In this document: piece after piece, positions 13,574 through 18,548 of the stretch
Layout: every line of letters begins with the position of its first letter
Numbering within the stretch: position 1 is the first letter of the stretch
Source: a virus
Reading direction: 5' to 3' (one strand)
IMG/VR virus record: IMGVR_UViG_3300042261_002385
Span: 248,001-312,000 of that record
Length of the DNA stretch: 64,000 nucleotides
Program-made: the position numbers and the translations under genes
The notes under the pieces: generated by a model
Told to the model about the DNA's origin: nothing
The model's input: the letters and a program-made list of their open reading frames with translations, nothing else
The model's database searches: none

Positions 13574-14092
13574 TTATTTTAATTTATTTTTAATTTCTTC
13601 TTCTATAGAAGGTTTTACGTTTTGTTGAGAAAGTTCTGTTCTAATTCTCATTAGAATCTTACCTAAGTAATTTAATCCACCATTACCACACTTTGGACAA
13701 GAGCAAGAACCCCAGAAATTATCATGCCAATTATTACCTTCAATTAGTTGTAATTCGCCAGTTTCTAAGAGGTCTTGTGCCAGTTTTTGATTTTTAAACT
13801 TTTCTCTAATTCCCCACTCCATAAATCCAAGTTTTTTCTCTTCCCAATCACTTCTGACCTTAACGACTTTACCGACCTTTTTAGCATCTGACGGATCTTT
13901 GATTCTAGCGACTAATTCTCTAAAATCAGGCGCAGTATAATAAACACCATCGATAAACTGCATTCCAGTGACTTTTAGAGCAACGTAGTAGTGCTCAACA
14001 CTCGGATATGTAATACCTTTATGTTCTATTTCACAGGGATAAAAATTACTTAAGAAAACATATCGACCACGAAATGAATTGATATAACTCAT
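13574..14092 (-). CDS. NADAR (YbiA-like) family protein
   Basis: A 172-residue NADAR-domain protein. Typical features are the opening FRGRYVFLSNFYP, YPSVEHYYVALK, a helix with WEEKKLGFMEWGIREKF and NNWHDNFWG, then LGKILMRIRTEL. A CxCxxC insertion (GSCSCPKCGNG) precedes the last helix and may hold zinc. NADAR proteins act on ADP-ribose-type N-glycosidic bonds; some reverse ADP-ribosylation of guanine in DNA made by DarT toxins. A phage copy could therefore undo a DarT-type defence or take part in NAD-related chemistry; this is inference. Start ATG at 14092 is clear. Confidence 0.88.
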   Translation of the reverse strand: MSYINSFRGRYVFLSNFYPCEIEHKGITYPSVEHYYVALKVTGMQFIDGVYYTAPDFRELVARIKDPSDAKKVGKVVKVRSDWEEKKLGFMEWGIREKFKNQKLAQDLLETGELQLIEGNNWHDNFWGSCSCPKCGNGGLNYLGKILMRIRTELSQQNVKPSIEEEIKNKLK

Positions 14093-14321: not shown

Positions 14322-15068
14322 TTAATTTTTAAGTATAGGAATTACAACTTCTTCTACAAATTGTTTCATATCTTCAACCGATATTGTATCTAAAGTGTCT
14401 TTTGGAGTATGACAGTTAAATAATAGTTTGAAATCTAAGTAGGTATTATCATCCCATTTGACAATTGATTCTTCTTTATTCTGAGTAGGAGGTAGTGGAT
14501 TTATAACAACCGAGTCTATACCATTTCTTCTGAAAGTAACGGAGTCGTTAAATGGTGTTTTAACAATTGGACAATCAAAAATAGATTTGATATGATTAGT
14601 TAGATTTCCAGGATAATCACCTATGAAAAAGTATTTTCCTCCTTTACCAGTAAGTTCTAAATTTAATACCCATTCGATATTTCCGAAAAATCCATCATTT
14701 ATCAATTCAGAACATCTTTGAGACCCTAAACCACCAACTTCTTCACCATCTAATAAAACAACTGTAATCTCAGGCATCAATTTTTTTATCATAATAGCAT
14801 TAATAACAGACGCTGAGTTATCATTTGCATTATCTATATCAGGATTCACGATATCATGATGAGCAACTACCATTCTACTTGAGTTACCACGTAAGACTAT
14901 ATTAAAACAATTTGATTTACCAGATTGAAATGTGTCTAATTTCCATTCTATTCCAATAGAGTCAAGTAAATTAGTAATGTATTGAACTCTTGGAGTAGGT
15001 TCTAAACCATTTTTATAAACATTACCGATATTTCTAATGGAGCAGAACTCATATATCTTATCATACAT
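14322..15068 (-). CDS. M28-like zinc aminopeptidase
   Basis: A metallopeptidase of about 249 residues. I start it at ATG 15068 (MYDKIYEFC); the frame stays open to 15158, but that stretch lies in the terminator and 3' end of the tmRNA-like gene. The M28 zinc ligands are visible: VVAHHDIVNPD (His70-71, Asp72), an Asp/Asn pair in NANDNSAS, the catalytic Glu pair in LLDGEEVGGLGSQ (109-110) and a late His in FNCHTPKDT. Family members remove N-terminal residues from peptides. There is no signal peptide, so it acts in the cytoplasm. A second peptidase of related type is encoded at 16.4-17.9 kb. Confidence 0.8.
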   Translation of the reverse strand: MYDKIYEFCSIRNIGNVYKNGLEPTPRVQYITNLLDSIGIEWKLDTFQSGKSNCFNIVLRGNSSRMVVAHHDIVNPDIDNANDNSASVINAIMIKKLMPEITVVLLDGEEVGGLGSQRCSELINDGFFGNIEWVLNLELTGKGGKYFFIGDYPGNLTNHIKSIFDCPIVKTPFNDSVTFRRNGIDSVVINPLPPTQNKEESIVKWDDNTYLDFKLLFNCHTPKDTLDTISVEDMKQFVEEVVIPILKN

Positions 15069-15078
15069 AGTGTATATA

Positions 15079-15105
15079 TAAAAAAACCCACTTAAAAAGT
15101 GGGTT
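15079..15105 (-). terminator. Terminator of the tmRNA-like gene
   Basis: On the minus strand a 9-bp stem (AACCCACTT / AAGTGGGTT) with a 3-base loop is followed by six T. It lies just after the 3' end of the tmRNA-like gene and before the peptidase start. Confidence 0.9.
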
Positions 15106-15111
15106 AATCTT

Positions 15112-15488
15112 TGTGGAGATGACGATGTACTGCCCATCGTGTCTTCCCTAGCTAACAATAATTATTCATTCACAGGCTTAGAAAGTTTCTCTAAACTTAC
15201 AAAGTAGTTAGTTGAACAACCCATCACTCTAACAATTCTGGTTTCACATTTTAAACTGTGTGATTCAGCTGGAGAATTTTTGCGATAAGCTTAAAAGATT
15301 AAACTACTGCTAGCTCTTCTACCTTAAGCATGTTGTTTTGTAGCGCCGCTACTAAATCTTCACGGGATGCTACTTCATTTGTTTTGCCATTTACGACTTT
15401 TGCCATCTAATTTATTAGTCGGTTACTTGACCATCCGACACCTGCATAATTACCACTACTCTATGAATCTATACTAAAAAACATCCCC
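15112..15488 (-). ncRNA. ssrA: tmRNA (SsrA)-like RNA with an unusually long tag
   Basis: About 377 bases with the layout of a one-piece tmRNA. The ends pair in a 7-bp acceptor stem (GGGGATG at 15488-15482 with CATCTCC at 15121-15115) that has the G3-U70 pair needed for alanylation; the 3' end reads CATCTCCACA. A long-range helix pairs GGTAATTAT..GCAGG (about 15454-15441) with CCTGT..ATAATTATT (15176-15157), as helix 2 does in bacterial tmRNA; the conserved CTAAGC-x-TGT sequence is present there. A GTCGG/CCGAC stem suits pseudoknot 1. The resume codon GCA is near nucleotide 86 (90 in E. coli). A 6-bp T-arm-like stem (ACGATG/CATCGT) is seen, but its 7-base loop GGCAGTA is not canonical. SmpB is not encoded in the window. 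Confidence 0.8.
15299..15403 (-). other. Predicted tag reading frame of the tmRNA
   Basis: From the resume codon GCA the frame runs 34 codons to TAA. It begins AKVVNGKTNE and ends KVEELAVV. Known tmRNA tags are mostly about 8-35 residues long and usually end in Ala-Ala, so this tag is long and has a Val-Val end. An ATG directly before GCA would also allow separate translation as a 35-residue protein. Confidence 0.55.
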
Positions 15489-15539
15489 ATAGTTTTATAA
15501 TTACAAATGTATATATAATATTTGAAAATATAAAAAAGT

Positions 15540-17950: not shown

Positions 17951-18520
17951 TTAAATATGTATTATATTTCTATCTTTATTCTCTATGAATGCTCTACCCA
18001 CGGTCGGTTGATGAGATTCAATAAAAGCATCTTCTTCTTTGGTTCTATAACTTTTATTTTTTAGTTCTTTTATTTTATTTTCAACTTCGATTGGTGGATT
18101 AATACTCACCCTATCTTTGTAACACCAAACTATCTCAGCGAAATTGTTATCTTTGGCTTTGCTGTTCTTTTTAGCAATCTCTGCTGCTTTTTTTAGAATG
18201 TGGTCTGGAATAATATCATCTTTAATTGCTTTAACTAAAACGTGACTTCCCGGATATCCGGATGCATGTAACCAAATGTCCTGAACACTCGAAGCAACTC
18301 CTCCGATAGATTTAGCATATTTACCACAAAAATTACTAGTCAAAAAATGATTTGACTCTTTATTTCTACCCCAGTAAACATCATATGAATTATCAAGATT
18401 CAAATCGTCTATGATTTTTTTATGTTTTATATCAACACCACTCTTACTGAACTCTTTTAATTGACTGTTTATGAGATTTTCTTTTAATACAAAATCACTG
18501 TAATTTCTAGTTATCTTCAT
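17951..18520 (-). CDS. Stand-alone NFACT-R (DUF814) domain protein
   Basis: About 189 residues from ATG 18520 (MKITRNYSDF); the frame open upstream to 18547 runs into the promoter motif. The centre matches the NFACT-R domain of RqcH/NEMF: DIWLHASGYPGSHVLVK, a helix LKKAAEIAKKNSKAKDN and the strand FAEIVWCYKDRVS. In cells RqcH binds split large ribosomal subunits and adds C-terminal alanine tails to stalled chains. The NFACT-N, HhH and coiled-coil parts of RqcH are absent, so it is not a complete RqcH. It may bind tRNA or stalled ribosomes alone, or interfere with host RqcH. It lies near the tmRNA-like gene. Confidence 0.78.
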   Translation of the reverse strand: MKITRNYSDFVLKENLINSQLKEFSKSGVDIKHKKIIDDLNLDNSYDVYWGRNKESNHFLTSNFCGKYAKSIGGVASSVQDIWLHASGYPGSHVLVKAIKDDIIPDHILKKAAEIAKKNSKAKDNNFAEIVWCYKDRVSINPPIEVENKIKELKNKSYRTKEEDAFIESHQPTVGRAFIENKDRNIIHI

Positions 18521-18548
18521 AACATATATATAAATTATCTTAAACAAA

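Follow-up and report, generated by a model that had tools for sequence, protein, structure and literature searches.

Phage-encoded tmRNAs have been described in mycobacteriophages Bxz1 and Wildcat, Bacillus phage G, methylophage Melnitz and huge phages (PMC7162821, PMC4131195, PMC9004378), and in the huge phages, where the tmRNA was assigned by ARAGORN, SmpB has been reported as well (PMC7162821). The surveys that reported them were based on ARAGORN, on Rfam or on BLAST comparison with known tmRNAs, and a 2025 database comprises 97,179 tmRNAs, of which the 79 phage entries were obtained from RefSeq viruses mainly by means of ARAGORN and BLASTN (PMC11915505). Published tag lengths range from 8 to 35 (PMC3968760, PMC8012679), ClpX binds the LAA end of the tag (PMC3968760), and the T-loop of an ordinary tmRNA has modified uridines (PMC3968760). 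The alphaproteobacterial tmRNA (RF01849) stands apart from the one-piece form, being encoded by permuted, two-piece genes.

The gene described here lies on the minus strand of the window, i.e., the whole stretch of 64,000 nucleotides that was analysed, which corresponds to bases 248,001-312,000 of a 436,265-bp virus record, the genome of a giant phage of the Mahaphage clade. Like the earlier examples it is carried by a phage together with SmpB but, to judge from its sequence, it is a new tmRNA variant hidden from the standard tools, combining a long tag that bears hairpins, an altered T-loop and co-encoded SmpB, ClpC and ClpP. No paper describing this family was found, in a literature search of incomplete coverage. 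The earlier note had proposed that the phage encodes a tmRNA whose tag is long and non-standard, and on this point a covarying structure, a reading frame devoid of starts, a phage SmpB and homology to Mahaphage tmRNAs that Rfam does recognise all agree. The best explanation of the whole, to which we give a probability of roughly 0.87, would be a working phage tmRNA that acts with the phage SmpB and frees ribosomes, the tagged proteins probably passing to a phage ClpC-ClpP. The gene and its flanking signals are as follows.

15111..15488, minus strand: one-piece tmRNA gene, supported by 37 distinct full-length homologues and covariation
15488, minus strand: mature 5' end, G
15114, minus strand: discriminator A, followed by CAA; CCA is not encoded
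15085..15105, minus strand: intrinsic terminator AACCCACTTTTTAAGTGGGTT, followed by a T-run
15504..15511, minus strand: candidate promoter element TACATTTG, located by sequence, with a putative promoter role

The terminator had already been noticed and is indeed present at 15105-15085. The element TACATTTG fits the -7 element of Bacteroidota, TAnnTTTG. In most members of the family the 3' CCA end is not encoded; four relatives (L069, L079, L080 and L087) do encode it (CTCCACCA), and the window copy differs from them at this place (CTCCACAA).

The comparison with ARAGORN and Rfam that the earlier note had suggested gave no match by either program: on the window, ARAGORN reported no tmRNA and Rfam no family above its cut-off, and none of the Rfam tmRNA models appeared on the local stretch at E up to 5. 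With default settings ARAGORN detected 0/37 members of the family; at a 70% threshold it read the same 29-residue tag together with many implausible calls, and hence this result was not taken as evidence. The Rfam alpha_tmRNA model (RF01849) gave a weak match to one relative, L016 (22.8 bits, E 6.5e-5); the best relative thus reached 22.8 of 50 bits and stayed below the cut-off of a standard tmRNA model, which is a detection threshold and not a biological feature. Relatives were recovered by other means. Distant BLASTN located the element in the uncultured phages LR745206 (78%) and LR756502 (69%), of 634,780 and 642,428 bp, and in IMG/VR a 21-base T-arm probe, a second probe and a looser pattern matched 14, 23 and 58 contigs, respectively. 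From these, 37 distinct full-length members were collected, all phage-derived. In every full copy a distance of 362-382 nt separates the 5' acceptor from the 3' acceptor downstream of it, so that all of them are one-piece and the permuted two-piece layout (RF01849, RF04321; 3' half first) is absent. When one genome of each of 84,980 species was searched for a cellular source, the loose T-arm pattern gave four chance matches that had nothing of the remaining element, and the plasmid search returned a single unrelated match of 29 bases. One truncated copy was also seen (L002 117-571, minus strand), in which the 5' half with the acceptor, the D region and the PK1 region is gone while the tag and the 3' half are intact, as a result of a deletion or an assembly error.

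The structure was derived from 12 sequences by RNAalifold, which gave the acceptor stem, the long helix 2, a stem at the PK1 position and the T arm; an H-type pseudoknot and one further stem were added by hand. Its elements in the window are listed below.

15482..15488, minus strand: acceptor stem, 5' strand, GGGGATG, with an invariant G3-U70
15115..15121, minus strand: acceptor stem, 3' strand, CATCTCC
15440..15467, minus strand: helix 2 with its inner extension, 5' strand
15145..15177, minus strand: helix 2 with its inner extension, 3' strand
15418..15439, minus strand: stem at the PK1 position, GTCGG/CCGAC (helix 4), covarying
15340..15373, minus strand: covarying hairpin within the tag frame (helices 5 and 6), with C-G/G-C to A-U exchanges
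15313..15329, minus strand: second covarying hairpin within the tag frame (helix 7)
15244..15268, minus strand: H-type pseudoknot downstream of the tag, CTG/CAG with TCAC/GTGA (helices 8 and 9), C-G to U-A in L003
15122..15140, minus strand: T arm ACGATG-GGCAGTA-CATCGT with a 6-bp stem, covarying, and a non-UUCRA loop GGCRGUA

Over the 12 sequences, 95.3% of the cells of this 74-pair structure are paired and 21 pairs are altered on both sides. Five pairing measures were compared with 500 shuffles, none of which equalled the structure in any one measure, and when the partners were shifted by 1-3 columns the pairing fell from 95% to 36-49%; the pairing therefore exceeds what is expected by chance. 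Folding of the window element as a single sequence gave z = -1.0, which is uninformative alone. The seven base-pair acceptor stem with the G3-U70 alanine identity pair, recognised from the window sequence alone, is borne out by the relatives: G3-U70 (alignment pair 6-389) is G-U in 12/12, and the stem holds one compensatory pair (8-387), which is A-U, G-U or G-C. The long-range helix 2 is likewise kept, its 24 pairs (helices 2 and 3) being about 98-100% paired; thus the acceptor and helix-2 pairs, on which the original proposal had been made to depend, are not lost among the relatives. As for the PK1-like stem, the first stem covaries, reading ATCGG/CCGAT in half the relatives, with A-U or G-C at its base; no conserved second stem was established. 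The hand-added helix 10 is weak in the 12-sequence alignment (67% paired). That the gene could be a decaying relic, used by neither host nor phage, might be argued from its being missed by the standard models and from the modest conservation of the tag; however, compensatory changes run across the helices and the frame is kept in 37 distinct sequences and among phages of 436 to 642 kb, and we regard decay as scarcely credible.

The T arm directly adjoins the acceptor strand. Its stem (helix 12) is 98.6% paired, with three pairs altered on both sides, and occurs as ACGAT/ATCGT, ACGTT/AACGT and ACCGG/CCGGT round a constant GGCRG loop. The canonical TpsiC loop (UUCRANN) is absent and GGCRGNN is found in all relatives, in agreement with the odd T-loop-like GGCAGTA read at the outset. 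GGCRGUA is without the modified uridines of ordinary tmRNA, a feature that counts against a working tmRNA. On the other hand, the Rfam consensus of the alphaproteobacterial tmRNA also has a seven-base T-loop, GGCgGUA, and therefore the canonical UUCRANN loop is not defining for tmRNA. An alphaproteobacterial origin based on this likeness was considered and found weak, as the T-loops of other Mahaphages are ordinary and their genes one-piece; since these phages carry UUCG- or UUCA-type loops, the likeness is probably due to convergence, which seems likelier than descent.

The tag was defined by the context of its first codon. A mutational study (PMC2481249) describes U85 (-5) and A86 (-4) of the E. 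coli tmRNA as conserved and holds that it is mainly A86 that sets the resume codon. In the window family U(-5)A(-4) is found in 37/37 only if the tag starts at GGC, GGA or GAC (29, 7 and 1 sequences, respectively), and for this reason the tag would consist of the charged alanine followed by the 29 residues GKTNEVASREDLVAALQNNMLKVEELAVV.

15386..15388, minus strand: resume codon GGC, nt 101 of the RNA, preceded by GTAAAT with U at -5 and A at -4
15302..15388, minus strand: tag reading frame GKTNEVASREDLVAALQNNMLKVEELAVV, 29 codons, open in all relatives
15299..15301, minus strand: tag stop codon TAA

This moves the resume codon away from the GCA at about nt 86 that had been put forward, a start excluded by one-base indels that relatives carry between GCA and the conserved frame. 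A start at GTA/TTA, two codons upstream of GGC, was also rejected: A(-4) is found there in only 33/37, as against UA(-5,-4) in 37/37. The stop codon, the frame and the ELAVV end given in the earlier note were right, and its count of 34 codons has to be reduced to 29. A tag of 29 residues is long yet within the published range. Family tags have 27-29 residues and, across these lengths, keep an ED-L/I-V core; where the tag has gained or lost bases it is always by 3 or 6 nt, and the frame is open in 37/37. As anticipated, the tag end is not Ala-Ala (0/37), the last residue being V in 23 and A in 14 of the 37, so that the C-terminus is hydrophobic; within the family the C-termini vary (TV, VA, LV, EA and others).

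Could the frame belong to an ordinary small protein gene, with an RNA structure that is regulatory or incidental? Most tags are shorter, and in the window copy an in-frame ATG closely precedes the frame. However, in 24/37 relatives the interval from the last in-frame stop to the tag contains no ATG, GTG or TTG, so that ordinary initiation cannot explain the frame and, barring non-standard initiation, a small gene is refuted; what is conserved is therefore not just a protein gene. In addition, the frame is surrounded by the acceptor, the T arm and helix 2, all of which covary, and relatives with 10-codon tags are recognised tmRNAs, which makes the small gene highly improbable. The pN/pS values (0.62 for the tag and 0.63 for another frame) do not discriminate, and are confounded by the hairpins of this region: the frame contains helices 5-7, and hence RNA and peptide constrain each other there.

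A second possibility is that the RNA is a decoy, which would titrate host SmpB or block host trans-translation without tagging, as has been proposed for the domain-only form of phage DS6A. There is a phage precedent for such an inhibitory tmRNA-like RNA (PMC4131195, PMC11915505), and the T-loop and tag are unusual; by contrast, the frame, its UA(-5,-4) context and its stop are kept in 37/37 with indels that preserve the frame, and the phage supplies its own SmpB. We consider a decoy very unlikely, and a ribosome-rescue function of the tmRNA very likely.

To place this tmRNA, the rest of the Mahaphage clade was reached via homologues of a prohead protease-like protein and of SmpB. Rfam found tmRNAs above cut-off in LR756500 (462 kb), LR756504 (636 kb), Lak-A1 and Lak-B2, at loci other than that of the window, with the tags GNNAEMRMAA, DNVNSFEQSILNELFAPVEMAVAA, DDEIDFRMAA and DDEIEFRMAA, in the same order. 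LR756501 (735 kb) gave a weak tmRNA match with a 33-residue tag ending in VEDLVLA; a group I intron (RF00028, 96 bits; L140 860-1091, minus strand) directly adjoins this match and apparently interrupts the T-loop region. The standard one-piece tmRNAs (RF00023; Lak, LR756504 and LR756500) share with the window family the gene order, acceptor, helix 2, TAAAY-G and a frame ended by a stop, and also the SmpB partner, except in LR756500, where neither SmpB nor a Clp unfoldase was found. The window family differs in being unseen by Rfam and ARAGORN and in its T arm, where a 6-bp stem bears GGCRGUA in place of a UUCRA-type loop; its tags have 27-29 residues, two covarying hairpins and a V/A end, whereas those of Lak and LR756500 have 10 residues and an MAA end. 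The tmRNA of LR756504 is intermediate, with a long tag, a 6-bp T-stem and a non-standard loop, yet an AVAA end. Given this intermediate and the resume context TAAAYGRY, common to the aligned Mahaphage tmRNA sequences, the window tmRNA can be assigned, by homology, to a diverged branch of a clade-wide Mahaphage tmRNA.

The protein partners of the tmRNA are encoded in the same phage genome, outside the window.

G000:C1:32176-34300: ClpC-like unfoldase without N domain
G000:C1:79293-79718: SmpB
G000:C1:326602-327129 and 385942-386466: two ClpP

The phage SmpB scores 171.9 bits against TIGR00086 (NCBIfam), whose equivalog cut-off is 119.1, and has the C-terminal tail GKKLYDKRQSIKERDIKREMQR, as aligned to solved SmpB. 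Both ClpP have GxAASM and the H and D catalytic motifs; a third ClpP-like protein near SmpB is weaker (93 bits) and was left out of account. The unfoldase (710 residues) resembles bacterial ClpC in its two AAA modules, UVR-type middle motif and VGF loop for ClpP, as the phage ClpP resemble theirs in the catalytic motifs, and a ClpC-ClpP complex of the phage is thus putative; bacterial ClpC, however, has an adaptor-binding N domain, which is absent here, the alignment of the phage protein with B. subtilis ClpC beginning at residue 146 of the latter. No ClpX above the TIGR00382 cut-off was found in the window phage. Like the RNA fold and the start-less frame, SmpB, ClpC and ClpP can be read directly from the genome, and the set of tmRNA, SmpB, ClpC and ClpP occurs in all four large records of the family (window phage, LR745206, LR756502 and a 476-kb IMG/VR record).

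Among the eight records searched, only Lak-B2 and LR756504 have a ClpX above the TIGR00382 cut-off. In Lak-A1 the ClpX (L118 1189-3258, minus strand) is a 689-aa protein with two separated ClpX stretches, which suggests a large in-frame insert, e.g., an intein. Phages with a ClpX are Lak, whose tags end in MAA, and LR756504 (VAA). LR756501 (VLA), LR756500 (MAA) and the window family, represented by its four large records (tags ending in V or A and in no case AA), have none, so that among these three ClpX-less lineages -AA was lost in two and kept in LR756500. This correlation comes from few, related lineages and two records may be incomplete; no ClpP was found in LR756501. The pattern would suit a tag that was freed from ClpX recognition and re-tuned, probably to ClpC-ClpP.

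In the reading that we prefer, a working tmRNA with its own SmpB, the RNA would be expressed and folded and charged with alanine via its G3-U acceptor, the phage SmpB would bind the charged tmRNA and stalled ribosomes would accept it. The ribosome would then switch to GGC at 15388, add Ala and GKTNEVASREDLVAALQNNMLKVEELAVV as a tag, and stop at TAA. Host ribosomes would in this way be freed during infection and unfinished proteins marked, the latter going to the phage ClpC-ClpP rather than to the host ClpXP, because the tag has no Ala-Ala and the phage genome has genes for two ClpP and for a ClpC devoid of the N domain, with no ClpX found. For the protease step taken alone, i.e., that the phage ClpC-ClpP reads the tag, we would put the chances close to even, though short of it. 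The re-routing of stalled proteins, suggested when the gene was first noticed, has indirect support from the phage ClpC and ClpP, the lack of ClpX and the correlation of tag ends in a few lineages. More tentatively, the components may form a self-contained, orthogonal tag-and-destroy pathway, in which a tmRNA with a remodelled T-loop works with the phage SmpB and the lengthened tag has co-evolved for an N-domain-less ClpC-ClpP and not for ClpX, while phages that keep ClpX keep Ala-Ala; this is somewhat less than an even bet.

The protease step could also be of little weight. A real tmRNA might mainly free ribosomes, its tag being a poor degron and the tagged proteins being stable or without a dedicated protease. 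The tag C-termini do drift, which is unexpected for a single strict degron, and according to a review cells owe their survival to rescue and not to degradation (PMC8012679); against this, no tag ends in a residue other than V or A, the ED-L/I-V core persists, and all the large records of the family encode both ClpC and ClpP. We consider this alternative, which concerns the protease step only, rather unlikely.

Some of the largest known phages thus carry a tmRNA lineage that is invisible to the survey tools, and the present counts of phage tmRNAs are therefore too low. Moreover, within one phage clade the T-loop, the tag length, the tag end and the Clp unfoldase change together, and this natural Mahaphage series makes the co-evolution of ssrA tag and protease testable. 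Ribosome rescue plus proteolysis would be among the extra functions that giant phages bring along.

The neighbourhood of the gene was compared across the relatives examined, as far as their contigs reach, and the order is kept: prohead protease-like protein, capsid protein, NFACT-R protein, two ORFs, tmRNA, NADAR and D12 methylase.

17951..18547, minus strand: 198-aa NFACT-R (RqcH-type) protein, upstream of the tmRNA and kept in relatives

Its NFACT-R domain (PF05670) scores 32.9 bits against a cut-off of 29.8, with an E of 3e-4 for RqcH, and the protein is possibly a second ribosome-quality-control element, a functional neighbour outside the tmRNA. The NADAR-domain protein beside the tmRNA locus (window 13574-14092, minus strand) is also kept in relatives. 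Directly after the tmRNA terminator lies a gene for an M28-type peptidase (window 14322-15068, minus strand), with no counterpart at the same place in the relatives checked. Elsewhere in the phage genome, 22 tRNA genes are gathered in a 20-kb stretch (G000:C1:60000-79900, L055), and among ten of their 3' ends an encoded CCA is missing in nearly all.
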